From: Apostichopus japonicus
Taxonomy: Eukaryota; Echinodermata; Holothuroidea; Aspidochirotida; Stichopodidae
Assembly (NCBI RefSeq): GCF_037975245.1
Contig: NC_092579.1
Coordinates: 17,915,678 to 17,979,677 of the forward strand
Direction: 5' to 3'
Length of the DNA stretch: 64,000 bases
Both the position numbers and the translations under genes were made by a program. Positions 6,149 to 64,000 of the stretch are shown in pieces; position 1 is the stretch's first letter; every line of letters starts with the position of its first letter. The notes under the pieces were generated by a model. That model was not told the origin of the DNA and did no database searches. It worked only from the letters and a program-made list of their open reading frames with translations.

Positions 6149-6915
6149 TGTATCTCCACATGTCAATCATCACCGAAATCGGGATTTGGAATATGTTAAT
6201 GAGCTAAATCGATGATATGTCGATTTAAATAGGTATATGTCAATTTGAGACGCTAGAAACGGGTATAAGTCCACGGAAATTGACTTCTACCGATTTAATT
6301 CGACATATCATCGATTTAAACTGGTAGATGTCGATTTAAATGGACATATCATCGATTTATTTTACATATCATCGATTTAAATCGATGATAAGTAAAATAA
6401 ATCGATGATATGTAGAATTAATCGATGATATGTCGATTTAAATCGACATATACCAGTTTCATTCTACATATCATCGATTTAAATCGACATATACCAGTTT
6501 CCTTCGACATATCATCGATTTATTTTACATATCATCGATTTAAATCGATGATAAGTAAAATAAATCGATGATATGTAGAATGAAACTGGTATATGTCGAT
6601 TTAAATTGACATATACCAGTTTCATTCTACATATCATCGATTTAAATCGACATATACCAGTTTCCTTCGACATATCATCGATTTATTTTACATATCATCG
6701 ATTTAAATCGATGATAAGTAAAATAAATCGATGATATGTAGAATGAAACTGGTATATGTCGATTTAAATCGATGATATGTCGAAGTAAACTGGTATATGT
6801 CGATTTAAATCGATGATATGTAGAATGAAACTGGTATAAGTCGAGGGAAACTGGTATATGTCGAAGGAAACTGGTATATGTCGATTTAAATCGGTATAAG
6901 TCGATCTCCCATGAT
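6149..6915. repeat. Palindromic module array, copy 1 (ATCGAT / TTTAAA family)
   Basis: After a unique lead of about 80 bases beginning TGTATCTCCACATG, the sequence is built almost entirely from a few short words. These are ATCGATGATATGT, CGATTTAAATCG, ACATATACCAGTTT and their inverse complements, in varying order and orientation. Many junctions are perfect palindromes centred on TTTAAA or ATCGAT. The same lead and modules recur at 16980-17417, so this is a dispersed element, not a local slippage product. The frames it contains are by-products. The left end ...TGTA|TCTCC would suit a Helitron-type 5' end, but I could not find the matching 3' end. Confidence 0.8.
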
Positions 6916-16979: not shown

Positions 16980-17417
16980 TGTATCTCCACATGTCAATCA
17001 TCACCGAAATCGGGATTTGGAATATGTTAATGAGCTAAATCGATGATATGTCGATTTAAATAGGTATATGTCAATTTGAGTCGCTAGAAACTGGTATAAG
17101 TCCACGGAAATTGACTTCTACCGATTTATTTCGACATATCATCGATTTAAACTGGTAGATGTCGATTTAAATGGACATATCATCGATTTATTTTACATAT
17201 CATCGATTTAAATCGATGATAAGTAAAATAAATCGATGATATGTAGAATAAATCGATGATATGTCGATTTAAATCGACATATACCAGTTTCATTCTACAA
17301 ATCATCGATTTAAATCGACATATACCAGTTTCATTCTACATATCATCGATTTAAATCGACATATACCAGTTTACTTCGACATATCATCGATTTATTTTAC
17401 TTATCATCGATTTAAAT
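16980..17417. repeat. Palindromic module array, copy 2 (ATCGAT / TTTAAA family)
   Basis: The first ~250 bases repeat the lead and early modules of 6149-6915 almost base for base, beginning TGTATCTCCACATG. The copy then stops after about 438 bases, inside a module (...CGATTTAAATC|AAGTC). The upstream flank differs from that of copy 1, which marks TGTATCTCC as the left boundary of the mobile unit. Confidence 0.8.
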
Positions 17418-17939
17418 CAAGTCAAATCTGTGTATTCAACTCTATTCATGCTTTTTATTTTCATACTCATCTATATTGTATTTTATTGTACAGTTTTACT
17501 ACATATTATGTGTTATATATTTTGTACTGTTGCATATAGCGTTTTAGAGCACTTTTGTGGGTTGCTTTATAAAATCAATTACGAAAATCAATTACTAAAA
17601 TCAATTATTAAATATTAAATATTATTATTATTATTAAATATTAAATTATTTCAACACTTAAGAGGGTATCCCGTAAATCTACAATCATGCATGAATAGTG
17701 AACTACAGCCATGATATTTTAACTTTTGTTTCCAGTTATAGGTGACAGTTTGCATTAGATACATTAGGCAATTGATAGCATACTTTCAAGTGATTGAAAT
17801 CTTTCAGCAATGTAAATCCCACTTTTATCTACAATAGAAAAAAAACTAAAATAACAAAAACATAAACAAAAGGTAATAACAAAAACATGAACAAGAGGTA
17901 CTATCTCTTAAAGGTGTATGCTTACGAAAGTTTAAATGA

Positions 17940-23084: not shown

Positions 23085-26000
23085 TTACATAGTATCCAAA
23101 CCAGGAAGAGGAAACTGCTTGGCAAAGTTTTCAACTTCTTCTCGGAGAGCTGTAATCTTTGGTTGTACCTCTGCGTTGGTTTTCAGGGCAGCCTTAAACT
23201 CCTTCAGAGTTGGCCCTGACAACGCTTTCAGCTCTTTCGTGATTTCTAGGGCTATCGGGAAGAAAGGGAAACAGAGGAAATAAAGGGAATGAACCCAGTG
23301 TGACAAGGTACTTAACTTGAGGGGTATGAGAGGGACGGGGGGGGGGGGTATATTCACGGAAAATATATTACATGTGAGGGGGGTTAACTTTGGTGGAACT
23401 CCCCAAACCCAACACAACAGCGTAGGTTCCAATCTAGTAGTGATTACCTCAATTACATAACAGAGCTGCATTCTGTTTAAATGTACCACCAGAAAACTTG
23501 CAAAATCATAATTTGGAATGTAAGAAAAAAGTCAAGTAACTTATAGAGCCTAAGGCCTAGCTATCACATTGTGAGTGTTCACTCGGTGGTCGAAACTTAT
23601 AAGCAGCTATTCTTTTAACTGCGGCTGAGGATTTGACAAATCTTATCGGTTTCTTTCTAAAAATTAACGATGGTTAGGTTTACCATGTGATATACAGGCA
23701 ACGTTCATAGAGATGACTGATGTACATTGTAGACAGGAACTGACAAAACTTCACTAAACCTACAACATACAAACACAGATAACTAACCTCTATGAATAAA
23801 TTCAACAACCTTCACAAAGTCACTCTCTGTCAAGTTTCTAGAAGTGAGTGCTGGTGTCCCAAACCTAAGGCCGCCTGGTTTAAAAGCGCTCTTGTCTCCC
23901 GGGCAAGTGTTCTTATTACAAACAATGGACGCAGCTTCCAAAACCTTCTCCCCCCTGGCACCGTCCAAGCCGAGAGGTCGAAGGTCAAGTAGAAGTAAAT
24001 GAGTGTCAGTGCCACCTGTGTTAAAAGAACCAAAACAGCAAAAACTGAAGAAAGTTTTTTATGGCAGATCATCGAACAAGCTGAGCAAGAATCTACTTCT
24101 GTCAGTGGCGTCAACTTTTTGAATGCTGATTCATCACTTTTTAAGCAAAGGACATGATGTGTTGTAGCCATGACTGACTGAATCTATCCAACAAACTTTG
24201 GTCAAATTTACTTCAAAATCACTGTTATTGAGCTTATCAAACTTATAGCTCAACTCAAATTTACCTTGTTGCAGAGGTACGAAGGAAATAGATCATAGGG
24301 GTCGATGAGGAGAGTAACTTGGTACCATGATCCTCACTGTCTTGGAATCATGGGTTTGCTTTATGCAGACTCAATTATTTTACCAACTGACATGGTCTTT
24401 CAAATGTATTGAGTGAAAATAAGTTTAAAGTAGATTATCGTTCCATTGCAATTTTAGTGACATTCCATTTTCTAAAAGTGTACAGCATTGTAAGCGGATT
24501 GTCCTTTTTGTCCAACATAATGTTACAGGTGAACGCTTGTGTCATTTTTCTTATCAAACTGACCTGTGGCAATGGAATAACCTTTTTCTACGAAAGCTTT
24601 GGACATGGCACGAGCATTGGCGATAACTTTATTACCATAGTCTTTGAATTCTGGTTGCAGGGCCTGCTTCAGAGCTACTGCCAGACCTGAAGGAGAGAAA
24701 ATAGGAGAACCATGATGGGTGACCATCCACTGAATCTGTCACAAGCTAAAGTATGCACTGAAAAATGCCATATCCATATCCAACGATGCAACAAAGCCCA
24801 ATAAAGTTTACTAGCAAATTAAAAGCTCTGTTTCAGCACTTTCAATTGAACCAACTTCTGGCTAGTGAAACAGAGGAGGTAACAACATCCCCAACTAACG
24901 AGGGTATCTCACAGACGAAATATGAAAGTACGCAAATTATACCAGGTTCAATATTATGTAAAACCCTGGGTCTGATGTGCAACGGTTTAAGCAGTCTCTG
25001 GACCCTACGTGTGTTGACTTATAGGGGGCTTGGCAGAGCCTTGGACCTCACACCTGAGCAGTCATCCACAGCTGTTAAACAGGATACGGAAGTTCTTTTC
25101 CAATTGTTGAGTGGGTGGGAGAAGTGGAATAGGTTAAGAAACACTGTTGTATGTGTATGGCTGAATTTCATTACATCTTAACATCCATGAGAACTGGCTT
25201 ACAACTTCTAATATACTCTGCCACTCTTTCAAAAATCTTAAGCATGTTTGGTTAACTGGAAAAAAATTTCAATATCATATTAAAAAATAAAAAATAATCG
25301 ACAATTCTGAAGTCGTACCTGCAACAGCATGCATATGAGGACCTCCTTGGAGACCGGGGAATACTGCATCGTTGATGGCACGCTCCAGTTCATACATCTC
25401 TTCCTTCCCATTCTTTAGTACTTTCCTCACACCTGAGAATCAAAGTTAGAAGGACAGCATTTATTAAGGATACTTGGAAACTAGAAGGAAACCAACCAAC
25501 ATTATTATTAACACCCTTTGCAAGCCACCAAACGAGAATCTTGCAAGAATCGATTCTAGTCCTCAAATCTGACATCCATTCAGCCCAGTCCAATCAAAAC
25601 AGTTCTGCCCATCATCAATCTTGTGCCGTATTTGGCAGATTTGTGCTACAACTGAAGTAACTTAGGGTCAAATAGGTCGCCAAGAAAGCAGTACCTACAT
25701 CGATGTTCATAAGTTGCATAATCGTATAAGTCAAAATACAAATAAGTCGCTGGTGGTTTTGTTGCTTGATTAAGCTTTAACCTTTTCCGTCAATTCTGCG
25801 ATAGTCTGTGAATACCATTTTCTTTTGAAACCCAATTAGCCTATCCTGTAACATTACAGTACAGTAAGTCACCAGTATTGTACAACAAATAGTCTACATA
25901 GCAAACTGGATCTTACTTTTTGGTGCAATAAGATTAGCCATCCCATCTCCTGTTATTACATCTTGCAAATCCAGGATTTCATTTAATTTGTCATACTCTT

Positions 26001-29000
26001 GGATAAAGAATGTTACGTCAGGAGCAGCAAATAAAACTTGTGGGAAGTTTCCATCCTCTCTAACCTTACCTTTCCTATAAAATATCATGCCGGCTCTGGG
26101 TCCCCTGAGTGACTTGTGAGTCGTACTGGTAACAATGTCACAGACTTCAAAGGGGTTGGCTACAACATCAGCTGCCACCAAGCCACTGACGTGGGCCATG
26201 TCAGCCATCAGGAATGCATCGTGTTCGTCGCAGATTTCTCTGAAACGCTTGTAGTCTAAATTTCTGGAGTAACAGCTGATACCTGGTGAAGTAAGAATAA
26301 ATTTGTAGTAGCTGGTTGCATACCACTGATACTCATATTTAAAATAGCTGGATTGTCACACTCCAGGGTGCATCAAGTATGACAGAGGCAGCGTTCTAAA
26401 ACGAGGGCTACCAGAGCTACTCTTCTCTCCAGGTAACGAAGGCTACGTAGATTTCCATTAAATTCTTGCAGGCCGACAGTAGGCTACAGCCCCTACGAAA
26501 CCCAAGTGGTGTAAAACAGGACTTGGTGTGTCCCGACTTTCTCGACAAATCTTCAATCTTCAAAATTTGCTTTATTATTTTCCAGTCTGATTTTTCTGTG
26601 CATTTTTTTTTTTAAATCTTCCTTCAAAACATCTGTAATTCCTTAAATTAAGAAAGGTTTATAGACATGTTTTTTTAACTTCCACCCTATAAATCCAGAT
26701 GACTTCCACTATTTTGATTGGAAATGAAACCCCTCCCCCACCCCCACCCCCACTGCCCTCCAAGAAAAACAAACACACAGTTGGAAAGAAGCTTGACATG
26801 TGTAAGTTGCCATGAATTGATGAAAATATAAATCTATTTTCTAACCTGCTATGACCAACTTGGGATGAAACAGTCTTGCCGTCTCTGCTAATTTATCGTA
26901 ATCTATCAGTCCAGACACTGGATCTACTTTGTAAGGCATTGATTCAAAGAATATCGACGTTGCTGAGATCTTTTTCTTGCTGGTCATGAAACCGTGGGTG
27001 AGATGACCGCCGTCCGGTAAGTCCAGACCCATTATCCTGCCGTGTGGTCCGACCACTCCTGTGTAGACTGCGAAATTCGCCGGGGAACCGGAGTAGGGTT
27101 GGACGTTGACGCCCCATTTCTCTGGATCGAGTCTGTAAACCTCTAGCGCCCTCTGTTGGCAGATGATTTCCAGTTCGTCATAGTACTCGGTACCACCATA
27201 GTATCTGCAGGATACAACATGTCAGGTAATTAATAATCTGGCACGATTGCATGACATTCAACGCCATTTTTTGTCCATAAAAAAAAATTGCAATGCATTG
27301 TTAACGTGAACATAATTTCAGGTTGTACAGTCAAGCCATTTTGGTTTCCTATTGAGTTTTGTGTTGCATCTGAGGAACTGAACCAATGGCCCTGTGTGTT
27401 AGGCTACAAAGTCCAGCTACTATACTTTAATTCATAAACTTGAGATGTTTAAAGGCTCACTTTACCTAAAATTAGAAGAAAAAAAAATACAACCTAAAGG
27501 GCAGTTTTCTTTTTTTTCTTAATGGTTTCCAACATGACAAATTAATTTCACACCTGATGTAATCCTTTAAGTACTGTGTGTTTAATACTAAATATGTATT
27601 GTATTGTATGCATCTAAGCATGAACCAAGCCTACATTCCTGCTTAAAGCTTAACAAGTATTATAACAAAATGTACATAGATTAGGATAACAGCAATGGAC
27701 ACTGCCACAATTTCAACAGACCCCCACTCTTAGGACTTGTTGGCCAGAATGAAAACAATGCATGTTTCCTTAAGCTTTGATAATGGACGTCAACCCTTTT
27801 CAATCTGTGCATGTATTAAGTTTACAAACATGGTAATGTTTCCTTTATATATCTTTGCCTACAAAGTATACAATAAAAAAAACGTACAGTACTGATCGTG
27901 GGCACCAGCACTTATAGTCATACACAGAATAGCTGAGGTCAAGGAGGTACATTTGCAGTCTAAAATGTGACCATGAAAGGTCACAGTCACAAGATATTGA
28001 CTCTTGGGGATGGCCACGACAGATATCAAAAGTGATAGTGCATATGTAAGCAGGGAACATGTTATTGCATAGCAAAATAGTGCATAATATGGGCAATAGC
28101 TGTACAGATGCCAAAATTTATAGTGGATTTTGTTCACAGGAACCATATTATTTTGAAAAAGAGATAATAAAGCCTTCAATACTGCTACAGTACACAAAAT
28201 TTGGACATTAAATTTAATATCACCTTAATTCCTAATTTCCTGTACACTCCTTCGACATGCATTACAGGATACTATACACATAAAGAACTATGTACTGATT
28301 CTCATATTCAATTTAAAATACATACTGCTACCGTGCTAAACAAGTGACAATGATGTACCCCTTTACTTTTGACTGATCGATCTATAACTTTGCTATATAT
28401 TGCATTTCTCTGAACTAGACCCGATCTGCTTTTATGAGTTTTAAGTCACTAAACATTTTCCGTACAGTGTTCATTAATTACTGTATTAATGTCACTGGTA
28501 GGAACACACAGACAGTAAGAGAAGGATCTATTCTACTGTACCAATCAGACAAAATTCACTTTTTCCACTTTGAAAGCAAAAGGCAAAGCAATCTTAATAA
28601 GTTAATAGTACTGAACATGCTGGTATCCAATAAGCCTATATACGGTAACGAAACACAGTGACAGAATGTAGCAGTACTGTACACTACAGTGTGGTAGAGA
28701 ATATCAGGTATTGATGCCATCTCTCTTGTAGAGTACATCACTGGTAGGCTTTGTTTAACTAGAGGAATGGCAGAACATTGGATCATGATCAAAATCCTAC
28801 ACTCATGACTACCTCCCTGATGAAACATTTCTGCCCTCTGGTTATATCTCTACATTTTGATCCTGTGTCATGGGGAAGGGGAGGTTGTGGGGTGAAGGGG
28901 ATGGCATCAAAGGCATAAGATCACAATTTAAGTCAGGCTATGAGCTTGGAGGATAAAGATACCCCTTGGAGGATCAAGATACCTCAAGATCTATGCAGGG

Positions 29001-32000
29001 GAGCAATGCAAAACATCCTGCTTGGTTTTCTCTAAAAATTTGTAAGACAGTGCTAGCTTATGACAGTCTTTGTAAAAAAACACAATAAAGTCAACGAACT
29101 AAGAAATGGATCTCTGGTCATTTTTATTTATGACGTCTTCAATACTGCCAACAACATCCACTGCTACTGATGAAGTGATAAAGGTGAGTTTAATTGCCCC
29201 GATTTTTGTTACAAAAACCCCCACTGTTTACCTGTTTCCGGGGTATCCCTCGCAGTATTTATTCTGCATGCATGAACCAAGAGCCTCCAGTACAGCTCGG
29301 CTGGTGAAGTTCTCTGAAGCGATGAGTTCTAAACCGTTAATCTGTCTTTGTTTTTCTTTACGGATCAAGTCATATATCACCGGATCATTTTGCTCCAAAG
29401 GTTGGTCTCCGAACCAAACATCCTTCTCTCCATTTGACTTGCCATTGGACGACATCTTGGCCTGATGAAGAAGAAAGAGACGTATGTGAACAGTACAAGA
29501 TGTAAGAAGGTAGACTGTGTCATGGACAACACTGTTCTGTTTAAATTTAACACAGTCAAATTTCCAGACCAGCATTAATTGTTTATTCTTTAAGTAGTCG
29601 GTATGGAAGTGGCTGCTATGGCTGTGTGACATACAGTTATTGTAAGTCACATCTAGGTCTGTTGATGCCAAAGAACAGCCAATGAGCAGGTAATTTAGTT
29701 TAGTTCACAGTTTGTTTATTGTATTTCTACCATTTCACAACATACACAAAATTGATATTTTATAACAATTTTACATGTGTTCATATATAAGACAGGGTTT
29801 GGATCGTTTGGTCAGACTGACGCTGATGTAAGATTTATAACAAAATAGTTAATGTGTTTGTAGAGGAACCAGGATAAGCATTTGGCTTTGCTAGTCTGGT
29901 CGCTCCCCCCCCCCCTTCCCCAGAAATAGAAAAAAAGATTTTGGAACAAGTTAAACCTAACTGTATGCCAATTCTGTCTTCCTTGACATACAGAAATTTA
30001 CATTGATATGGTTATCACCACTAATGCACATTTATACATTAACACTTGTAAACATTTGTATACTGTACACATGATATACTGTATGTATTAAACATACAAA
30101 CACAATTACACACATGTACTAATACATGTACTAATATGTGTAGTACTATTTATTTATTTTATTTTTAAGAATAAAGATGTGGAGGCAGGAATAGCTACAT
30201 AAGGACAATTACAAGACGTTGACGGGTGAAGTTTGAATGTGGCGTTTCAGTGACATTTTAAACTGACGCAAGGATTTTGTATCACGCTTGGAAGTGAATT
30301 CCAGAGTATGACACACCACGATTACCAATAAGCAATTGGTTTTGGTTTTGTAACTTAAAATTTTTTCCTGCTATGGTTCACAAAGTGGCAGAACAAATAA
30401 ACACTCCTGACACACAAATGTAACTTGAAGCAGTCCTACTGTACACTCTACCAATAGTTTCTTTTTTCAAACTAACACCTCTCAGCATTTTTTTCTATTT
30501 TGTACGGTTTGCTTGCAGCGAGAACCGAAACTTTCCAACGAACCTAGTTTGAGTGGATCGTGAGGTTTTCCAACCCACAGTTGATGGAAACATATCAGGT
30601 ACAATGTACTGTACATGCTGTGTACCTACTGTACCTCTGCAATGATGTTAATAATGGGCAGAGAATAATTATTCATCAAATTTTAATAGCAAATGCTATA
30701 AAAAAATAAAATTAACTATCGATAAAAATGCTATATATATAAGTGCTAAAATGAACATGTTATATAATTTTCTTACATACAGTACATGTAGAGCAGAGCT
30801 GGAAGTTGCAGAATTTCCCGTATATATGCATCATTGCACATGATTTGCAATGTTAACCAGTGCTATACTATTTCTTGAAAAATACTGTATGTACAGTGTA
30901 TCTTAAAGCAACATCAAATGTGATGATTGGTAGTCTCTTATTAAAGAGAGAGAAAAGGATTCACTTAAATGTTGAAATGGCCTACCAGACTACCACCTGA
31001 AAACAGTCCAGAAAGACCTTTATATCTCTGCAAGTCCAGTAACAGTCTTTTACAGTATGTTATGGAAGCTTAAAAGTGTCATCAACATAAGAAAAACTTT
31101 GCCTCATAAGTTGACATTTTTCAGTAAATTGTTTAGATAACAAGATAATATCTTATAAAAATCAGAAAAATGTTGGATTCCTCAGTTGCTTTAACTGAGC
31201 AATTGAACAATTTTCTGCAAAATGTTTAATTGACAACCTATCGTATCTTGTCAATTCAACATATTTCTGCAAAAAGGTCAATTGTTCACTTCATTCCAAC
31301 TGAGCAAGTGAAAAATTTTCTGCAAAATGTTCAATTGACAACATAAATTGACTTGTCAATTCAACATTTTTCTGCAAAATGTTTAATTGTTCACTTCATT
31401 CCAACTGAGCAATTGAACAATTTTCTGCTTAATGTTTAATTGACCACTTATCATATGTCATTATTTCAACAATTTTTGCACTCCTATCACTCCAATTTGT
31501 AAATCATTTGTAAGTTGGACTTACTTGGGGAACTAGTGATCTACATATTTTGTACAATGTAGTGATCTTAAGCCTTTTTCATCACGATCCTAGGACCATA
31601 AAAGACTGGAATACATTATCCTTGGCTGTTAAAGAGAGCCCTAGTCTTGGGTGTTACTAAAACGAATGACAATTGCGTTACACATAACAAATGACAATAT
31701 GTTGTACACACTAAAAAATTGTGTTGACTAAAACGAATAACAGGAATGAGAGCACAGACATTTGCTTCAACCGGATATCACAGTTCAGACTTCGTGGGTA
31801 TCTAGATCTAGTAAAGTACGGACAAGATAAAAACGCACCTTACAGTAAGCGAAATTGTAAGTTTGATTTTAAAAAGTAAATTTAATGTCATTTTTCCGAT
31901 AATAATTGTTATAAACTAACAATACTATAATCTTGAAACGGCTTCAGTTATCTTTCTACATAAATCTACAGAGGTAAAAAGCACAACATTCAAGAGCATT

Positions 32001-36343: not shown

Positions 36344-39300
36344 ATGGCATCCACCACTGAGCAGAATGATACTCTTGAAACTCTTCTAAGTTCGTATTAT
36401 TTGATTTCTTTAATAAGTTTTTGTTATTGCATGTGACGGATTTCGCCATGTGTTTTATAAGCTGCTTGTCTTTTTGCTTAGTCTTTCGACTATTTGTAAC
36501 AAGCAAAGTGTAAAGGAGCCGTCTCATGACCTAACTCAGTCAGTGTTAATGTTAATTGTTATTGCAAGGGAGGAGGTTCCGCCTGTTGTGTGCAGATGTG
36601 ATATCACTGCATCACTCTCGATTGCACTAAGCTAAATTTACATAAGGCCTATCAATAGGTACTCTCCGCCAGACCGAAATAATATTCAGAAATTATGCTG
36701 AAGCAATTTTATTAGGACGTAATCGTTTCATCCTATTTTGTTTGGTGGCCAATATCTCTGTCTGGGGACATAGGCCTAGGCTTACACAGTAACAATACAG
36801 TACACACACATTTCACTAAGTTGCAGTACAGTATTGTCGAATATAACCTAACAGTTACACTGTACGTTAGGTACTGAGGGCATAAACTTTTATCTAAGCT
36901 ATGTTACAAACATCCTGACTTTGGTTACACCATACTGGAGTTTCAATTTCTCTCATGTTATGGCCCACTGTAGTTAATACTTAGCTTTGAGGCCTTATAT
37001 AATATTTGACCTACTGTAGGCCTATACTTCAGTCTATACTTCAGCCTCAGGGCCAAGAGCACATCTCTTGAGATCATCAGGTTACGTTAGAATAGCGAGT
37101 TACCATCAGTGTACTGAGTTAGGCTATACAGTCCTTGCATCAGTTGATGAGGCTATTCTCGAAAGTGGCTTACACCATTCATAATGATTTGACTAGCAAA
37201 ATTAGTCTTCCTGTAGAGATAGCGATATAAATATTTTGGGATTGTTTGACAGAGTTCTATTAATTTTAAAATTAAATGCCACTAAGGCAACCTGAAGGAT
37301 AACTTTGGTCCTGTGAACGGAACTCAACCAGCTCTGAGCAACTATTAAAAACCAGGCCTCTATTGACACAACATAGAATGGCCTAATCAGTTTTTAAGAT
37401 GATATCTGGTAATGTCAATACTATAAAGTATAGTTAAGCTGCTAAATTTCATTCATGGTTTTCCATATTTTTAAAGAAAATAATTAAATCAGGTTTGAAA
37501 TATTTCTATTAGAATACTCAGACTTTTGGCAGGAAAAACCAGCATTTTGGTAACCTTTGCTTGTAGGGTGAACAGAAATTATCTTGTTTTTACAGTACAT
37601 TATCGTAAAAATGAATGGTTTTAATAATTTTCATGGAAATTTTGTACTCTTGACAAATTGATAGAAATTGAAATTATAAAAGCAGCTTTGATGTTGTGTT
37701 ATACATATTTAATAGCTTTATAAATGAGAAAAAGATATGAGCAATTTGTTTTCTTGATTTGACAGAGCTTGTTCACTACCTAACCTAGCTAGTCAAATTT
37801 GACATCTTTATCTTTCAGATAAAGCAACAAACCCTCTAAATAGAGAAGAAGATTGGGAATTTATTTTGACTTTTTGTGACAGAGTGAACTTTGAACTCGA
37901 AGGGTAGGTTATGAAGACATATTTTTCTTTTTAAGAAAAAATATATTAAGTATCAAGTTTAAATGAAGCAGAACATAGACACTTTGTAATAGAAACTGGA
38001 GCCTAGCAGGCTTTTGTAATGGGGCCAGATGATTTATGTACTCTCTCCTTTGCCAAGTAAATTAACAGAAACAAATTATATATGCCATATTTTATATGCA
38101 ATGTGAGGTAAAATTGTGCTTTGTGTTCAATGCTGTTCTTGTTTCATGTATGGCAAGTAACCCCTGCGAGAGAAGTCACTCTTGTCTGGAAACTTGTGAA
38201 TTGAAATTTGTCATTTATGTCCATTTTTCCAGACCTCAAATAGCATGTCGGCTAATAGGTCACAAGATCCAGTCCCCCCAAGAGCGAGAGGCCTTACAGG
38301 CTTTAATCGTGGCAGAAGCATGCGTCAAGAATTGTGGCGAGGCATTCCACAGGGAAGTTGGAAAGTTTCGATTTCTTAACGAGTTGATAAAATTAATTTC
38401 TCCAAAGGTAAGAAGAGAGGAAGGCATTTGAAATTCTGTACAAATTCTATGTATTTCTTTAGTTATCTTCAACCAAACATTTCGCCTTTGGTGGACAACA
38501 AATTTCTAGAACACAGGGTTTAGTGCTCATCGGGAAATTGTAGACAAATGAAATGACAATCGTACATAAGGAAGTTAAAGTTGGAATTATGTTAAGCCTG
38601 CATGATCTATAGATATTTATAATTTCTGATGTCATGAAGTTTTATAGGATATAGTTTAAAAAGAATTGGTCTGGGTATTTTCATTCTCGTCTTCCGTAAA
38701 TAATGAGTCTAGGACCAGCAGAACCCTTGGCTTCCTTAATAGGAATTTGCACTCTTGCCCACCAGAATTACGTGAATTGGCCTCTATGTCTATGTGTCGT
38801 TCTACTCTTGAATATGCAGCTCAGATTTGGGACCCTTATAAGGTCTCAGACCAAGATATTTTTAGAAAAAATTCAAAGGAAGGCATCACGTTTTGTAACT
38901 CGTGATTGCCGTAGGCAATTCAGCGTCACTCTGATTTTGAAGACTTTAAAGTGGGAACCCCTCACAGAAAGAAGGAAAAGGGCCAGACTTACAGTATGCT
39001 CTTTTACCAAATTATTAATGACCTAATTGCAGTCCCAAACGAGACTAATCCCTTCTTGAAACCAGGGAGGCGTGACCGCTATACACAAATTCCACATAAT
39101 CATCACGCTTTTCAGTATAGTTTCTATCCTACTGTAGGACTATAAAAGACTGGAATACACAATCCTTGGCCGTTAAAGAGAGCCCTAGTCTTGAGGTGTT
39201 TAAGACAAGATTGCCTACGCATTATTTTTAGCTCTGCTGCGCTGCACACCAACATCCTTGTTGTGATACCCGAGAGGAGTTTTTAACAAGTACCTAACAA

Positions 39301-45300: not shown

Positions 45301-48300
45301 TAAAATTTCTAAGGCTATGTGTCCAAATAGTGCTATATGGCTATGCATTATTGATGTGTTTTCAATACCAGAGGAATTGTTCCATTTACCAGGGACTGTA
45401 TTTTAGACATCAATTGGTGAAGCTATAATTACACACAAGGCGCTGTAATGAGAAATTGTTGATATTGATATGAGGTTTTGTTTTAACTATGAAATGTTTG
45501 TCCTGGAAGGATCTTCCTTAGAGACAGACTAACATGAGAAGGGAGGATACAGCTTATTGTCGGAATAAATGGGACAGACAGGTTATATTTGGAACATTAA
45601 ACATTGAGGGCAGGGCTGCTGGAGATTTAAAAAATAGGGCTGCAGCTGTTTCACCTCTAGCGACCTGTTTCCTTCGAAGAAGATTTGCGCTAGGATGCAA
45701 ATGTCAGGACTTCTTACTTTAGCTGTATTTGCTGTAACTACATTAAATACCTAGACAGGCTATTTGTAGTAGATACGTAAGTAGTTGAGTAACCCTTTTT
45801 TTGTGCTAAAACAAATTTGAAAGGTGTTCATTTTCATTTTGTTGCTCAGGATGTCATCACATCAACCACCAACCCCACAACCAGCCAAACAGGAAGCAAC
45901 AAAACCAGTGGACACATTTGCTGACCTGGCTAATTTAGGAAAGAGTCTGGTGACTAAGACACCAGCTGAAATACCCCCCAAAGCAACAGTCAATGCAGTC
46001 GGGGGTCAGAACCCCCCGGCAGGACCAGAGTTGCAGCAGGGTACCCCCTCCCCTGTGACGACTGTCAAACCAACCAGCCCCACTGTTCTACCTTTGAAAG
46101 ATATATTTGTCGCTTTAGACTCCATCAAACCTGGTGAGTTGTCAACCACTTGTGAAAATATTTACATTTGAGCCTAGAGTGGGGAAGGAGTGGGTGGGGG
46201 GGTGTTGGGTGGGTCAGGGGTGGGATTGTGGTTGATTTAACTATCAACTTTAGTTAGTGCTTTTGTAGAGCAGTTAACATGTTTTCATGTTAAACTATTG
46301 TTAGCAATCAGAATGGACTGTAATGTTGGCTTGTGACATTATTGTCACAACACAACTATGTCGACACCTTTGAGCATGTCTGTCACACGGGCATCGGTCA
46401 AACCTAATCCTACCATAATTTTAGAGCAGAGGAGGTCCATGTCCCTGTCCTACTTCACTTTAATGAATGAAGTAATTAATTTGTTTTCATGAACCTTAAA
46501 GGCTAATCTCCAGCTAATTGCGCCTCATTTCCACTGAATGAAAATTACTTCTCGGACGTGTTAAGAGAGCGATGTCCGTCAAGTTGCATGATTATATCCA
46601 GTAAGAACTGGAATATGATCAACAGGAAACCAGTTACTCTTAGGGAAGTACTATTACATTTGTTAGTTCTGGCAGAGGTCTCAACCATCCTTTGGAGCCG
46701 TATAGTCTGATAACTTGCAGTTTATCAGAGTTGAAATGCAGCCAAAAATATCAGCCAAAAGTATCAACGCTTAAAAGTATCACTCGGTCTGGTCGTGCGT
46801 TTCGACAGATGTGTAAACCTACCTCTGTAACATTAGCACCTTGATTGCTCTTGTGTATATTGAAAGGTGTAACATAACCTATAACAGCCAACAAAAGAAC
46901 AGTGCTGTAAACATCACTGACTATTTTGGTTATAACACTCCACAGATGTTTAAACCTTTCCCGTGCGACATTTTGACTTGATTGCTTTCATGTTTATTCG
47001 CTCAGGTGAAACACAGCCTATAACAGCCTACGAAAAGAACAGTGTGAAAACAGTGGTCCACTTTGGAAAAGACTCGCCGAGACCGGACATTAAGGTCATG
47101 GTGGTCTCCACCATGAGTACAAACACTTTACCAGTCAAGAATCTAACTTTCCAAGCAGCTGTACCAAAAGTAAGTTCATCACCTAGCAACCACTGTACCT
47201 TTTTTTGTTTTTTGTTTAAAATAATCATGAAGAAGACTATAACTTTCAACAGTTGAAGCAATTCCTCATCTTTACATCTGCATTATTCCTCAAAACATTG
47301 GCAGAATGCAAACTTTGCTGAACTCATTTATGAAAACATATGAACTTTTTTGTCTGTTTTTTGTTGTCTCCTTTTTTGACAGACAATGAGGGTAAAGTTG
47401 CAGCCTGCATCAGCAGAAAACCTACCTGCTTTCAATCCAATCCTTCCTGCTGCTGCAATAACCCAAGTCATGCTCTTAGCCAATCCACAAAAGGTTTGTA
47501 CCACATTGTCATGAAAGATGGGTCTAGCAGAAAGGCATTTTTTATCTTTTACACTTATTATTAACTTTTACACTTACTCATTAAAAGGATATGTATGACA
47601 TTGACGTGATTTGCTGGATTTTTAAGAGATACTAAAACGTTGAAGGGATACAAACTCCAATCAATAAAAAGAAACTTTAAGTCTTTAAAGGCATTGAAGA
47701 CTCGCGCACAAAGAAACATCTCATGCCGGTAATCTGACCTAGTTTCGAATGAGGTGTAACAGAAGTGTTAGACACCACCATCGATCCCAGAAAATACACA
47801 CACAGCTTGCTACCGTCGGTAATTAGACACTAGTGTATAGTCAATACATGCAGCTACGGTCAATACCTACAGCACAGTGTACATAGCAGCGATGGACATC
47901 TCAGGTCGAGATTGCCATGAAGTCATGGAAGGGATAAAACCTTCCCTTGACACGGGAAATGGGTGGTGAGGTGGTGGGTACGTGGAGTTTATCTTTTGGA
48001 GACATTTTTCACGGAGCCATTTTCTGTCTATTTTCAGCATTGCCTTTGTAGTAGGTGCTTCATTGTTTTATGCCAGTATTTGTATAAACAATCAGAACTG
48101 GCTACCATCAAATGGGCCGATTGGATTGGATTGACAAGTATAGATTGTACCGCAATTAATAAGACATTGGTTTAGTCCTAATGCACATAGGATCGTCGCT
48201 ACTGAATCATTGGGAAAGTAAATCTTTCGCACAGGGTTCTGCCGCTGCCGGTCGGGCCCGACCAGCACGCTGAATTACCGACCGCCACAATCTGCCTGAG

Positions 48301-50963: not shown

Positions 50964-52508
50964 AAAAGCAGTCTCGGGAGATGCTCGTACAACTCAGCCC
51001 AGTACTAGGTACGGCCCGGCAGTGCTTTTAAGATATCGCTACTCTCGTATTACTTTCATTTGAAAGGTGGAGGTGAGTCGGTGACTGCAGAAATGTTTGA
51101 AGTTTTGAAGAGGATTTTGAGACAAAAGAAACTCTATGAGGCCGTTTTTTTTTTTTTTTGGCCTTCCTTGTTTTTGGTTTACCTTTATGTGGACATAAGA
51201 GTAGGCTTCATTTTTTTTCCATTTTTGTTTCTTTTTTCTTCTCTTTTTTAACACAAAGTTGCTAAGCAATATTTAATGTGTGCTTAAAGCATCTTGTCCT
51301 GCATTGATGTATAGGTAGAAAATATCTTGGTTAAGTTGATGCTTCCAGGTTACAACTTTTGTGTTAAAAAGTAAAAAAAAGCCTGTTCTATATCAAAACG
51401 CACTTTTAGAAACAAATCAGTGTAGTCTCAACCAGTCTCAAGATGTGAACTTCATATCTCATAATAGACGTAACATTCACACAGACTTTCATTCACAAAT
51501 AACAAATTAATGGCTCTAATAGAAAGTAAGTAATGAGAGCGCTCTAGCTACAGGCTCAGTGCAGGCACTGTGATTATGGAGGGAAGGATGAATGTAAGAG
51601 ATGAGGGTGAGTTTTAGGGTGGGGTGGGAAGTGGAGGGGAGGTGCAATTTTTGGTGTTCCAGTAGCTGTTGGTTCAGGTAATAGGAACAATATACATATC
51701 GGAGGGGGGGGGGGAGGAGATCTTGAAAATGCCTGTTAACTTCTGAAATGAGATGCAACTTGGTGGCCTTAAAGTAGAAATATTGATTGGCAATATTTGT
51801 CATACCCTAACAAATTTCAAAAATATTGAAAATGTTAACACTTTTGGTTTTTAAAGTGGTGTGTGTGTTCTGATCAGCACCCATCTCAAATTTGGCTGAA
51901 CCAAATGTAGTTATGAATTGCTTGCTAACAATATGAAATCTGGAGCTTAATTTTCTGTGATTTTTCAAACAGGGTATTAAAGAAAGGGTGAATAAATGGA
52001 AGAACTTGTAAGCCAAAACCTCCCTTAATTTTGCTTTTAATTGAGAACATATTAACACAAATACCTGCAGAAGTAACAGTGCTTTAGTACCAATATGTGG
52101 AAATTGTGAAGCCCTATAAATAAAGTATTCTACTTTTGATTACATGTTGTGTGTAGTTGTATCTTAGTAAAACAATCTCACCTATTAGTGTAACTCTTCT
52201 TCTGAAGGTGTATTGACGAGTAATATGGCTTACAATCTTAAAATAAGAAGTTGGAAGAATAAGAAATAGGATATAAAGAAGAAGAAAAAAAAAAGTAACA
52301 CAAGTTATTGGTTTAGAAGGTTATTGAACCACTCACCTATAAGTTCTTTGCTCTGCTATTGAAACTTAACTATCGAAATTTGCATGTCTGATTATTATGT
52401 CCTATGCCCCACTCCCTTAAAACGAAAATGGGGGAAGCAGGGAAACCAAAACGTAAATGATAACTCAGAGATGATTCATATCCTGGCAAGAATACAAAGA
52501 TAGAAAAT

Positions 52509-53259
52509 GATACATATATTACATTGATACATATATTACATTGATACATGTCTTACATTGATACATATATTAATACATTGATACATATATTACATTGACA
52601 CATATATTACATTGATACATATATTACATTGATACATATATTAATACATTGATACATATATTAATACATTGATACATATATTAATATATTGATACATATA
52701 TTAATACATTGATACATATATTAATATATTGATACATATATTAATACATTGATACATATATTAATATATTGATACATATATTAATACATTGATACATATA
52801 TTAATATATTGATACATATATTAATATATTGATACATATATTAATATATTGATACATATATTACATTGATACATGTCTTACATTGATACATGTATTACAT
52901 TGATACATTCATATTAATACATATTTTACATTGATTCAGATATTAATACATTGATACATATATTACATTGATACATATATTACATTGATACATGTATTAC
53001 AATAATACATATATTACATTGATACATATATTAATATATTGATACATATATTACATTGATACATATATTAATACATTGATACATATATTAATACATTGAT
53101 ACATGTCTTACATTGATACATGTATTACATTGATACATTCATATTAATACATATTTTACATTGATTCAGATATTAATACATTGATACATATATTACATTG
53201 ACACATATATTACATTGATACATGTATTACAATAATACATGTATTACATTGATACATAC
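52509..53259. repeat. AT-rich tandem repeat, units of 17-21 bp
   Basis: Units of ATTGATACATATATT, with or without AATACA/AATATA, are repeated about 40 times. A segment of about 145 bases starting at 52871 recurs from 53101 nearly unchanged (230 bp apart), including rare variants such as 'gattcagatatt' and 'cattcatatt'. Part of the array therefore grew by block duplication. Confidence 0.9.
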
Positions 53260-54924: not shown

Positions 54925-55163
54925 ATATACATGTATGTACATGAAATACTCATGTTTGTACATGAAATATAGATGTATATTACTTGATGTATGCATGTAT
55001 GTACATGGAATATTGATGTATGTACATGAGGTAAACACGTGTGTACATGGAATATTGATGTATGTATGGGAAATATTCATATATGTACATGAAATATACA
55101 TGTATGTACGTGAAATACACATGTATGTACGTGAAATATACATGTACTTATGTGAAATATACT
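54925..55163. repeat. ~21-bp tandem repeat, GTACATGAAATAT type
   Basis: About eleven imperfect units of GTACATGAAATATACATGTAT. The unit length is a multiple of three, so both strands stay open for 92 codons without coding meaning. Confidence 0.85.
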
Positions 55164-57612: not shown

Positions 57613-60600
57613 TTATATTCTATCCTCGGATGTTTCTCCAAGAGTTTCTTTTTCTTCCCCCTCGTTATCCATACTTGTATTCGCCTTCCAGGAAGGATTT
57701 TCTATTCCAAACAGTAATGGTGGCTCTCTTAATTTTTCTAGTTTCCTACAAAACAGAACAAAACAAAAATATAATAACATCAAGAATATATAATAAATTC
57801 AAGACATATTTTTTATTTTTTTCATTTATAAAAAAATTCATTTTACAAATTTCTATTAATGACCTTATACAATATAGGCTAAATATTGATATAATATATG
57901 TCGATATATGTCGTTAACCTCATCAATACCATTACTACAAAGCTCACATTTCATTTCCACTCACCTGGCAAGTTGTTCAGTATCTTGGATAGTGGTAGGG
58001 AGGGGTTTCCCCTTTGTCTCCGGGAGAAGTAGGCAAAGTAAACCAGCTAAAGTAGCCGCACCTCCAAAAATAAAATACGGCAGACCTATCCAAACGTCCT
58101 CCAGAAGTAATATGAGAGGAGCAATAACGCTGCCTATGCGAGAAGTTAACGAAAACACACCAAGCCCGATGCTCCTGCAGGCAAAGTATTGGGAAAAAAC
58201 AGGTGACCAGTTTACTATTCAGGAGGGTGTGGGGGTAGGGGGTGGAAGGAGTAGGGGAGGTGTGGAATGAGGAGAACGAGAGGAAGGGGAGATACCGATT
58301 CGTCCAACACGGCAGGATACAGAAATGTTGTACTCAAAGCCAAAGTGAATTAATCAGGTCACACATCAGGACTCTACGCATGCTACGTTCTACACTACCG
58401 CCCTCACTCATTTTCGGGGAAACATTTCATACTATAGTTTTAATGTAAGATATTGACCATTGATTTGAAACTTGGCTCGTTCAATGATCGGGGTGTTTGC
58501 GGAAATGTTGGAGGGCAGAGCAACGTGTCAGCAGTTTATCAAAATCTATCTTTTATTTCCTACGGTGACATTTACTCCCTCAGTATATGCTCTTATAAAC
58601 TAAAAAATGTTCCTCTCACCTCTATAACATTGCTAGTGTACTCGTATGCAAATATGTAGAAACACATGTAGAGTGTAATGGTAACATTCAGTTAACTATA
58701 GGAGCTCAGTGACATTAAAATGTGAACTTGATTGTACTCCATTTTCTTCTTGTTTTATTGTTCGAGACTGCCAACATACCTTAAAGACGTTGGTACTAAT
58801 TCCACAGCCCACGTGTAAACTAAAGAGAATGACATGGTTATTCCGAATTTTCCCGCCATAACTACTATCAGACGCCAAACACCAGCATCTGTGAACATAA
58901 AGTTAGCAGCATTATAAATATCATTATGTAACCATTTTTGTTGAGGTTGTGTAAGTAGTTTTTTTTTTTTTACAAGTTGACAATGAAACATAGTAACGAC
59001 AGTGTTTAATGCCCTGTGCAAATACAATTATCTATAACACATACGCCAAATTGGGAAACACGTGAATTGCTTTATAATACTATAAAATACAAAACGTTAG
59101 ATTCAACCATGAGTACTTTCGGTCCAGTGGAGAGTCTTGAAAAATAAAACACGACGATATCAAGAATGTCAAAAAGAAAGATAAACGCACCTATTAAAGG
59201 CGCAACGGAGCAGGATACACCAGCTAAGAGCATCGTGGCAAAGGTGGCGCGCTTTCTACCAAGCACATCCGCCACAAACATACAACAGAGGTAAGCTGGA
59301 ATCTCGACCACCCCGGATATCATGAACGACAAGAAAGGATCCACACCTAATTCTGATGTACTTAAAGAGAGTCCATAATATACTAAACTTTGGACACACC
59401 TGGGGTATTAAGAAGATTTGAGAAAGGAAAATGACTTTAGCTGTTGAAATAAAACAAGATGTGACATATATATATAAACCGTTAACGAAAGCAAAGAAGT
59501 CTTTGGCCTAGAACGGGATTCGAACCAGTGACGTCAGGATTACAAGTTCTGTTCTCTACTAACTACGTCATCACATTAGTTAGAGATGATCTTTATCATA
59601 GCCATGCTTTTGCTGCCTGGGTGCATAAGGGATCACATTCCACTGTAGTTGTAGCAGCTAACAAGCTGTATAGGTTACCGCTTTCTTAGCGTTCACCCCG
59701 ATGGTGACCTTTGACACGGTCACCATAGTAACGTGTCTTTGTCTGGTGCAAGTTTGTTGGTATTTAGACTTTGAGGTTGGTTACATGTTCATTACATTGG
59801 GTATTCGGGTTGTTCTTGTTGTTTTACCTGTGTTTGTATATGTGTTGGAAGGTTCTTGGACAAGATGTGGCACATTAAACAAGTTATTCATATTTCATTG
59901 TTTTATGGTATGTTTTCAGCTTGAGACAAAGAGGATCATGTCGAGATGGTGGTGGTTATTTAACAATATCCACCATTCAACTCTCAATTGGTTAGCTTGT
60001 ATTACTGTGATAACAACGTAAACACAAAACTGAATGTGTTTACAACCATGCAAGTATACTTCTAAATAGTGATAAATGTGCTTTGACGATAACGGACAAT
60101 GGGATTATGGGTATATAATACAATCTATATACAGATTATGAATACATACCAGTTAAAACACATATTTACAAAAATCAGTAAAACAACAGGACTGCGTATA
60201 AGATCACGAAATGTTCCCTTAACCTTGTCAGACGATTGGCACTGCAAGATAAAACATAGGAAGGTAAGACAGAGGAAGGTAAAACATAGGAAGGTAAAAC
60301 AGAGGAAGGTAAAACAGAGATAGATAAAACATAGGAAGGTTAAACAGAGGAAGGGTAAAACATAGGAAGGTAACGCAGAGGAAGGTAAAACAGAGGTAGG
60401 TAAGACAGAGGAAGGTAGAACAGAGATAGATAAAACATAGGAAGGTTAAACAGATGAAGGTAAAACATAGGAAGGTAAAACAGAGGAAGATAAAACATAG
60501 GAAGGTAAAACAGAGGAAGGTAAAACATAGGAAGGTAAAACAGAGGAAGGTAAAACAGAGGAAGGTAAAACAGAGGAAGGTAAAACAGAGGAAGGTAAAA

Positions 60601-63244
60601 CAGAGGAAGATAAAACATAGGAAGGTTAAACAGAGGAAGGTAAAACATAGGAAGGTAAAACAGAGGAAGGTAAAACATAGGAAGGTAAAACATAGGAAGG
60701 TAAAACAGAGGAAGGTAAAACAGAGGAAGATAAAACATAGGAAGGTTAAACAGAGGAAGGTAAAACAGAGGAAGATAAAACATAGGAAGGTAAAGCAGAG
60801 GAAGGTAAAACATAGGAAGGTAAAACAGAGGAAGGTAAAACAGAGGAAGGTTAAACAGAGGAAGATAAAACATAGGAAGGTAAAACAGAGGAAGGTAAAA
60901 CAGAGATAGATAAAACATAGGAAGGTAACACAGAGGAAGATAAAACATAGGAAGGTAACACAGAGGAAGGTAAAACATAGGAAGGTAAAACAGAGGAAGG
61001 TTAAACAGAGGAAGGTAACACAGAGGAAGGTAAAACAGAGGAAGGTAAGACAGAGGAAGGTAAAACAGAGGAAGGTAAAACATAGGAAGGTAAAACATAG
61101 GAAGGTAAAACAGAGGAAGGTAAAACAGAGGAAGATAAAACATAGGAAGGTAAAACAGAGGAAGGTAAAACAGAGGAAGGTTAAACAGAGGAAGATAAAA
61201 CATAGGAAGGTTAAACAGAGGAAGGTAAAACAGAGGAAGGTAAAACATAGGAAGGTAAAACATAGGAAGGTAAAACAGAGGAAGGTAAAACATAGGAAGG
61301 TAAAACAGAGGAAGGTTAAACAGAGGAAGGTAAAACAGAGGAAGGTAAAACATAGGAAGGTAAAACATAGGAAGGTAAAACAGAGGAAGGTAAAACAGAG
61401 GAAGATAAAACATACGAAGGTAAAACAGAGGAAGGTAAAACAGAGATAGATAAAACATAGGAAGGTTAAACAGAGGAAGGTAACACAGAGGAAGGTAAAA
61501 CAGAGGAAGGTAAGACAGAGGAAGGTAAAACATAGGAAGGTAAAACATAGGAAGGTAACACAGAGGAAGGTAAAACAGAGGAAGGTAAGACAGAGGAAGG
61601 TAAAACAGAGGAAGGTAAAACAGAGGAAGGTAAAACATAGGAAGGTAAGACAGAGGAAGGTAAAACATAGGAAGGTAAAACATAGGAAGGTAACACAGAG
61701 GAAGGTAAAACAGAGGAAGGTAAGACAGAGGAAGATAAAACATAGGAAGGTAAAACAGAGGAAGATAAAACAGAGGAAGGTAAAACATAGGAAGGTAAAA
61801 CAGAGGAAGGTAAAACATAGGAAGGTAAGACAGAGGAAGGTAAAACATAGGAAGGTAAGACAGAGGAAGGTAAAACAGAGGTAGGTAAGACAGAGGAAGG
61901 TAGAACAGAGATAGATAAAACATAGGAAGGTTAAACATAGGAAGGTAACACAGAGGAAGGTAAAACAGAGGAAGGTAATACAGAGGAAGGTAACACGTAC
62001 AGAGGAAGGTAGAACAGATTAAGGTAGAACAGATTAAGGTTTAAAACAGAGGAAGGTAAAACAGAGGAAGGTAACACAGAGGAAGATAATACAGAGGAAG
62101 GTAAAACAGAGGAAGGTAAAACAGACTGAGAAAGGTTTAAGATAAATGACCCGGATATGAATATTAAAATCAGCTATCTAATAACGCTGAACTCTACTTA
62201 TACAAGGTACATGAAAGATAAAAGTTAAAACTAACGCGACAAACATAATTTGATTCTTCAAGAGAAATGGAAATAACTATAATTAGCACATATAGCTTAC
62301 CTCGTCCACATGACATACGCCATCAATGTACTCATCAGAAACAATCTTGCCATTCACTTTCGCTATTTTCTTAAGTATTTTTGCTGCTTTTTCAGGCTTT
62401 CTTTTCGTTATTAACCAACGAGGTGACTCGGGCACAAAAATACTTCGAAAGATAAAAACAAGAATTATCAATGAATATCAAAACATTTTCATATACAGAA
62501 CGGTATATCAGTGGCTACCTAATATTGAATAGTAGCTAGTTTATTTATATATTTCTTGTTCACTGTCAGTTCTCGTTGTGTTGTTTGGTTATTGATTTGA
62601 TGTGAGTTTTCCTTGTGTCTGTGGGTGGTCCTTTGACAAAACCCCTTTTCTGTTTTTCTCCTTTCGTATCTCGTCCATTTCCCTTGTATTTCTTATCCAG
62701 GGAATGTAAAACCCACGATTGATTTATTTTTTAAATTCCTTTGAAGTTTCCAAATCTTGTTCGTTCCTTTTTCTTTCTTTTGTTTTTGTCATCCATGCTT
62801 TACTCTCTTTTTATTTTATATAATATTTAATATTTATCTTTGGCGTATTACCAAAAAAAAAATTGCAATGGATCAAACTAAATCACTCTTACGTTATAAT
62901 TAAATTTTTCGGTATCTGTGAGTAATGAGATGACTCCACGAAAATTGGTCAAGAAATATCTAGTAATCATTAGCAAATCCAGGGCTAAATAAGTTATTAA
63001 CAATTTCTTTGAATAGCGCCCTCTACTAAGTAACATTCTGTTTCTTTAATACATTCGGTGTTCTTTGGTACTTACTACGTTACGATAAGTGCCAGCATCA
63101 TAGGTAGCGATATCGTTATCTCTAGTATCCTCCAGTTAGTGAGAAACTTCGCAATCGCAGCAAAAATCATGTAACCGAAAGCCCAAAACACCCACAGTAA
63201 GTTACCAACCAACACCCTCTTAGAGGGCGCTACTAGCTCGTTGA
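57613..63244 (-). CDS. SLC22-family organic cation/carnitine-type transporter, 3' seven exons (5' end outside window)
   Basis: Twelve-helix major facilitator of the plasma membrane that carries organic ions. Exons in transcript order: 63244-63079, 62442-62301, 60241-60150, 59399-59191, 58888-58780, 58174-57965, 57745-57613. Each junction is GT-AG and in phase, and the visible part is 352 residues plus stop. Family marks in order: RVLVGNLLWVFWAFGYM; NWRILEITISLP; FVPESPRWL; SLVYYGLSLSTSELGVDPFL; GVVEIPAYLC and ADVLGRKRA; MAGKFGITMSFSLVYTWAVEL with VPTSLRSIGLG; and PETKGKPLPTTIQDTEQL. The last exon adds an acidic hydrophilic tail (GEEKETLGETSEDRI). The 92-base exon at 60241 completes the helix-6/7 loop and a Trp codon across its donor (TG|G). 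The first half, with the large extracellular loop, lies beyond 64000. SLC22A4/5/15-like and Orct-like members cannot be separated. Confidence 0.93.
59513..59577 (-). pseudogene. tRNA-Thr(UGU)-like sequence, probable tRNA-derived SINE head
   Basis: On the minus strand there is a perfect box B (GGTTCGAATCC, from 59526-59516), a box-A-like TAGTTAGTAGAG, and an anticodon loop CTTGTAA with U33 and anticodon TGT. The anticodon and T stems each keep 4 of 5 pairs. The acceptor stem does not pair, so it is not a working tRNA. It lies in an SLC22 intron (59400-60149). Confidence 0.6.
60244..62125. repeat. 15-bp minisatellite, ~125 units, in an SLC22 intron
   Basis: The plus-strand unit is GAAGGTAAAACAGAG. 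Common variants are CATAG for CAGAG, and TAACAC, TAAGAC or GATAAAAC for GTAAAAC. There are higher-order blocks: a TAACAC...TAAGAC pattern recurs at 61481, 61556 and 61691, offsets of 5 and 9 units. The intron is 60242-62300, so the array is about 91% of it. The array reaches the acceptor of exon 60241-60150, and its last unit forms the polypyrimidine tract on the transcribed strand. The long frames on both strands (532 codons minus, 151 plus) arise because 15 is a multiple of three and the unit has no stop. Confidence 0.97.
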
Positions 63245-63510
63245 CTGTGGAAAGATTAGAGATTATTTACATCATCAAATATCGAAATTGAAAGATGGGC
63301 AATGTGATGTTTCTATGCTTGTAACTCTTTAAGAATGATAACTTGGTGTACTTTTTATTCAGCCTTTGGCTTTGAGAGAAACGTGACGTTCTATTTGAGA
63401 GGAGAAATACACCCCCAATGGAATGAAAATGGTCTTTGGGGACGCTACGCAAGAATATTTCCCAGTTGTGTGTACCAGTATAGGCTAGGTATATGGGAGT
63501 ATATCTAGGT

Positions 63511-63838
63511 CAGGGTTTCCCTAACTTTATCCCCCCACGAACCCCCTGTGGATGTCAGTGTCGTCCACGAACCCCCAACTTTTCGAAACACGATCTAAGT
63601 CATTATTATACTATAATACGTATAACAGTGCTTCATAAAAGATCAAGTTCATAGTGTAATATTGTAGAAGTTGTCGATGGGTACGACTTTTGTACATTAC
63701 AAAATTATATGATATATCAGATTTTAGTTCAACAAAAAGTACTCTAGTTTTGACTTTCAGAAACGTCTCACGAATTCCCTGGGCTGGACTCACGCACCGT
63801 CCCCTGGAGGTTCATGCACCCCAGTTAGCGAACCCCTG
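63511..63838. mobile_element. hAT-like MITE (328 bp)
   Basis: The left end CAGGGTTTCCCTAACT and the inverse complement of the right end, CAGGGGTTCGCTAACT, are 16-bp terminal inverted repeats with few mismatches. A perfect 8-bp target duplication ATCTAGGT flanks them (63503-63510 and 63839-63846). It lies upstream of the last visible 5' exon of SLC22, presumably in an intron. A short minus-strand frame inside it has no recognisable domain. Confidence 0.88.
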
Positions 63839-64000
63839 ATCTAGGTATATTAGGTATACTAGGTTACTCAGTAACTTGTGCAACACGATGTATTATCAAT
63901 TAGTCCAGAGCAATGAAGCTTAAATGTAATTCAATGTAGTCCCTGCTTGTTATAAATTTAAAAGAACATGTTTAATTGTGTTACTTAATTTTATGAACAA

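Follow-up and report, generated by a model that had tools for sequence, protein, structure and literature searches.

The window analysed here is a stretch of 64,000 nt from Apostichopus japonicus, and the repeat array that concerns us lies in a gene on its minus strand that spans 57965–63244 in the part read here. Six exons (63244–63076, 62442–62301, 60241–60150, 59399–59191, 58888–58780 and 58174–57965), each with AG before it and GT after it, can be spliced to give a single open frame, and in a protein search the spliced product matched SLC22A3 with E = 1.2e-60 over query residues 2–308 of 309. When an approximate version of this protein was used as the query, SLC22A3 was found at E = 7.7e-61 together with the Pfam family MFS_1. 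All 25 of the sequences listed at E <= 1e-20 are named SLC22, OCT, organic cation/carnitine transporter or URAT1 and, by sequence relationship, the host is an SLC22 transporter gene, the family to which an earlier note on this DNA had assigned it. Elsewhere in the window, parts of a serine hydroxymethyltransferase gene are present on the minus strand at 25897–29704, with Pfam SHMT in both open frames scanned. The open frames 38700–39023 and 45821–46168 had no Pfam match, and searches of the whole window with Rfam (gathering thresholds) and ARAGORN (bacterial code) returned no matches.

The intron of interest (60242–62300, minus strand) is 2059 nt long and in phase 0. The exon upstream (62301–62442) reads (Y) plus 47 residues and the exon downstream (60150–60241) reads CQSSDKVKGTFRDLIRSPVVLLIFVNMCFN(W); both match SLC22A3 and they join in frame. 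The donor is GAG/GTAAGC at 62301/62300 and the acceptor is TTTATCTTGCAG/ at 60242. Donor, acceptor and in-frame join agree, and on these sequence grounds we infer that the intron, which the earlier note had placed between the same two exons, is sound.

Minisatellites are made up of head-to-tail units of roughly 10–60 bp in many copies, and most of the intron is one such array. TRF placed it at 60246–62125 with a period of 15, 124.9 copies, 88 % matches and the plus-strand consensus AAGGTAAAACAGAGG; unit size and copy number both fall within the definition. It occupies 1880 of the 2059 nt, the intron being 179 nt long when the array is removed, and a single base separates its last unit from the acceptor CAG. 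Decomposition into 125 units gave 121 of exactly 15 nt without an indel and four that are irregular. Read on the sense (minus) strand, the consensus is CCTCTGTTTTACCTT, a rotation of the unit named in the earlier note, and the array is 82.4 % pyrimidine (T 978 + C 571 of 1880), as its description there as pyrimidine-rich had implied. When the unit was searched for with up to two mismatches, 115 of the 116 matches started in 60246–62113 and the remaining one lay at 46080, compared with a mean of 0.23 matches in whole-window shuffles. No clear sign of block duplication within the array was seen, the longest repeated run being 6 units against a mean of 4.5 and a maximum of 8 when the order of the units was shuffled. 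An exact 30-base pattern of two units had no matches in viral contigs or in bacterial/archaeal genome contigs, the latter being expected because those contigs hold bacteria and archaea only.

Two minus-strand open frames, of 596 and 566 aa, cover most of the array, raising the question of whether it is coding rather than intronic, which we regard as exceedingly unlikely. Where the 596-aa frame runs into the next exon it is out of register with the SLC22 frame, and it ends VPIV followed by a stop. The SLC22 frame, traced back from exon 60150–60241, is closed at 60448–60446, about 200 nt into the array, and read-through from exon 62442–62301 stops at 62285–62283, before the array is reached. Splicing to the CAG at 62126, at the far edge of the array, would put the frame into a stop at 61933–61931, inside the array, whereas the direct splice joins in frame.

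The plus strand has a CT (AG in the sense of the gene) at 60242 and no further one until 62126. The sense strand is therefore free of AG for 1882 nt, from 60244 to 62125, up to the acceptor CAG (60244–60242), and this is exactly the interval given in the earlier note. It belongs with the large AG exclusion zones (AGEZ), defined as at least 100 nt, and compares with zones of 66, 70, 33, 123 and 38 nt at five other acceptors examined in the gene. The second-longest CT-free run in the window, at 323 nt (52554–52876), lies inside another tandem array (52508–53258). This array has a unit of approximately 17 bp (TGATACATATATTACAT), contains AG only 2 and 3 times on its two strands over 751 nt, and is without CC, CG, GC and GG, making it a second array missing dinucleotides that its unit lacks. 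Other arrays in the window include one of 21-bp units (ATATACATGTATGTACATGAA) at 54925–55162, which is crossed by open frames in both orientations (the longest on the minus strand being 132 aa), and two about 10 kb apart (6291–6904 and 17122–17418) that have a common TRF consensus, CGATTTAAATCGACATATAT, which by eye is palindromic in part, suggestive of local spread of a single satellite family.

The likely working 3' splice region (60242–60300) was delimited by a motif scan. It includes a CTTAC branch-like site, with its A 23 nt before the acceptor G, a TTTAC at 38 nt, a pyrimidine tract supplied by the last array units, and the acceptor CAG. In the last 120 nt, yUnAy motifs are found 8, 23, 38, 53, 68, 83, 98 and 114 nt before the acceptor G, and the array holds 111 matches to yUnAy, 11 of them of the yUAAC kind. 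The TTTAAC-like branch sites of the earlier note are borne out as a motif count, and its view that the array provides the pyrimidines of the acceptor is consistent with the last unit doubling as the polypyrimidine tract. At the far edge of the array, the distal flank (62126–62165) ends in TTTATCTTAAACCTTTCTCAG and carries a candidate acceptor-like site: the CAG at 62126 is preceded by a pyrimidine tract, and yUnAy motifs stand 17, 32, 38 and 44 nt ahead of its G, the farthest of these falling just outside the flank as delimited here. By eye, TTTATCTTAAACCTTTCTCAG (62126–62147) is like the true acceptor, TTTTATCTTGCAG, and may be a relic or a decoy 3' splice site.

Exons with a distant branch point have a very long AG exclusion zone as their hallmark (PMC1431707), and here the yUnAy motifs are distributed throughout the array. 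The branch point might hence lie at the far end and the spliceosome scan for approximately 1.9 kb before it reaches an AG, an arrangement known from the tropomyosin or PTB exons, though over a much greater length here. This appears very unlikely. Branch-like sites with pyrimidine tracts are present at 23 and 38 nt and, at the level of motifs, good candidates close to the acceptor are thus available, whereas exons of this type have none. If the branch point lay upstream of the array, the first AG encountered would be the 62126 CAG, which should catch it: AGs nearer than about 12–15 nt to the branch point can be bypassed (PMC1431707), and the nearest yUnAy is 17 nt away. PMC1431707 itself discounts a 369-nt zone that was put down to an AG-lacking repetitive element and has its only good branch site at −17. 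The branch point is, from these motifs, most likely to be in the array near its acceptor end, in which case the rest of the array would need no AG exclusion. Of the earlier argument, that an array without AG could grow to any length without creating a competing acceptor, the absence of AG and the branch-like motifs stand, and the idea that a long AG-free array is needed is weakened by the near sites and by the CAG at 62126, which would stop a scan from upstream.

It had also been suggested that variants containing AG were purged, that is, that selection removed AG units and so allowed the array to grow long. Besides the complete absence of AG over 1882 nt, this reading can draw on the CAG standing right at the far edge (62126) and on the finding that both of the AG-making changes of the consensus give TAG or CAG. 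Any new AG would then be a strong cryptic acceptor, because most units carry a branch-like site and a pyrimidine tract. The minigene tests described in PMC1431707 show harm from AGs placed inside a long exclusion zone, which can be used or can wreck expression and, in Drosophila, the motifs most depleted from polypyrimidine tracts are those that contain AG (PMC10946897). Because of these results, selection on AG is credible in principle.

Null models give a different picture. The consensus unit is without AG, unit joins included, and only two of its 45 single substitutions create one. Among the 121 clean units, substitutions of 13 different types were counted and none of these types produces AG (hypergeometric P = 0.50; the four indel-bearing units, also without AG, were left out of this count), and the class-weighted chance of no AG is likewise 0.50, the relevant sense changes being T>A at 3 of the 8 T positions and C>G at 1 of the 5 C positions. 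Neutral simulations of the array under two mutation biases, kept when both the divergence and the number of types matched, ended AG-free in 55 % and 68 % of the kept runs, though these were few (67 of 116,017 and 127 of 97,360 tries) and the model of array growth was devised for this analysis. If 40 independent mutation events are assumed, the chance of no AG drops to 0.16.

Nor is AG singled out. GA and GG do not occur either, and the stretches that lack them are longer (60230–62169, 1940 nt, and 60225–62149, 1925 nt, respectively); CA, CG and GC are nearly empty. Among the 5646 possible substitutions of the real array, 332 create AG, 332 GA and 266 GG, and all three dinucleotides stand at zero, where 14.1, 14.1 and 10.0 are expected from base composition; the counts for CA, CG and GC are 1, 3 and 2 against 58.9, 41.6 and 41.6 expected. 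In a distant-branch-point exon, AG would be excluded more than comparable dinucleotides; here GA and GG are excluded to the same degree. The unit has 6 invariant positions where 5.2 would be expected (P = 0.40), which is also unremarkable. That AG, GA and GG should all be missing at once sits less easily with the null, under which it has a somewhat low probability (P = 0.11; 0.07 and 0.25 in the simulations), though this pattern is not specific to AG. When minus-strand 15-mers outside the array with at least 12 pyrimidines were circularised, 2433 of 2613 were AG-free, 2438 GA-free and 2493 GG-free, and a pyrimidine-rich founder would therefore usually be without AG.

The array itself is beyond chance; the absence of AG, given the CCTCTGTTTTACCTT unit, is within it. 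These comparisons do not support the claim of purging, as an array free of selection would be expected to lack AG in about half of cases (0.50; 0.55 and 0.68 in the simulations) and the controls GA and GG, which are not acceptor signals, are missing to the same extent. Since the repeat unit was without AG to begin with, the absence is no evidence of selection. Most of the array, moreover, would lie upstream of a branch point placed in the final units, and we therefore consider an array purged of AG to be unlikely. Weak selection, with a new AG acting as a cryptic acceptor, is possible and would have left no detectable mark here. The more demanding proposal, that selection holds the whole 1.88 kb free of AG because any unit in the series could stand in for another as branch point and pyrimidine tract, seems distinctly improbable.

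The explanation that we favour, and that is quite probably correct, is that an ordinary minisatellite occupies the 3' end of this intron and is AG-free through its founder unit and the small number of mutations that make AG, with no purging needed. A 15-bp minisatellite would have grown at the extreme 3' end of an otherwise short (179 nt) SLC22-family intron, its unit having arisen from, or taken over, the polypyrimidine tract, so that it would have been rich in pyrimidines and without AG from the start. The array would then be AG-free because the founder was and because few mutations make AG, an account that is sufficient, not proven. The branch point used by the spliceosome probably falls within the final two or three units, at the CTTAC or TTTAC noted above, with the last unit serving as the pyrimidine tract of the acceptor; the remaining 1.8 kb would therefore be passive intron length.

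Birth from the intron's own polypyrimidine tract, the other origin put forward earlier, is plausible, and is the simplest reading because the array adjoins the acceptor and the unit would itself make a plausible polypyrimidine tract. Similarity to the unit left no clear trace in the distal flank, where 31 of 200 (40 nt) and 20 of 200 (175 nt) mononucleotide shuffles reached the observed score, in the downstream exon (110 of 200 mononucleotide shuffles) or at the five other acceptors (106, 47, 161, 148 and 116 of 200 shuffles). No direct repeat families were found in the flank 62126–64000, and the four two-copy families of 14–17 nt in 57900–60245 were taken as chance.

The array may alternatively be a regulatory element, with a repressor such as PTB binding its units and modulating the inclusion of exon 60150–60241. 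PTB has a preference for pyrimidine-rich sequence, and approximately 125 copies of a C/U-rich unit stand beside the acceptor. There is also a precedent in the 25-bp VNTR of ABCA7 intron 18, which begins at the exon 18 donor, has alleles of up to 10,678 bp, the longest enlarging the intron eightfold, and shows a correlation between its length and skipping of exon 19, while use of the donor in the next unit retains one unit (PMC5954066). Even so, we judge a regulatory role to be quite unlikely.

The locus offers a tidy case of an intron whose 3' end has been taken over by a minisatellite while the adjoining acceptor is apparently intact. It also calls for caution, in that the founder unit largely determines which dinucleotides a tandem array lacks. 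Should selection on AG prove true in other alleles or species, the array would be a natural experiment on acceptor scanning and, were selection to act on the whole array, the exclusion zone would exceed the 1126 nt reported in PMC1431707 and would test the reach of 3' splice-site scanning.

The tract in PKD1 intron 21 has its pyrimidines on the sense strand. Like that tract, which was studied for non-B DNA and replication-linked instability and for which a length of 2.5 kb appears in the reference list of PMC11696556, the array described here is a kilobase-scale polypurine–polypyrimidine tract in an intron; its pyrimidine content is 82 %. It resembles the ABCA7 VNTR in starting at a splice site, though that VNTR adjoins a donor (GT) whereas this array adjoins an acceptor. 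The AG-specific signal of Drosophila polypyrimidine tracts seen in PMC10946897 is missing from it. Among the papers listed by literature searches, none described an AG-free minisatellite at an acceptor apart from the repeat case in PMC1431707, where an AG exclusion zone arising from an AG-lacking repeat is already published. That survey of 67,334 human exons includes 838 zones of at least 100 nt, among them one of 1126 nt in a 1132-nt intron of tyrosine phosphatase sigma. As in the human exons with large zones, a long AG-free stretch here reaches the 3' splice site, while the length (1882 nt), the 15-bp minisatellite and the gene are different. The array is a new and long case of the known AG exclusion zones.
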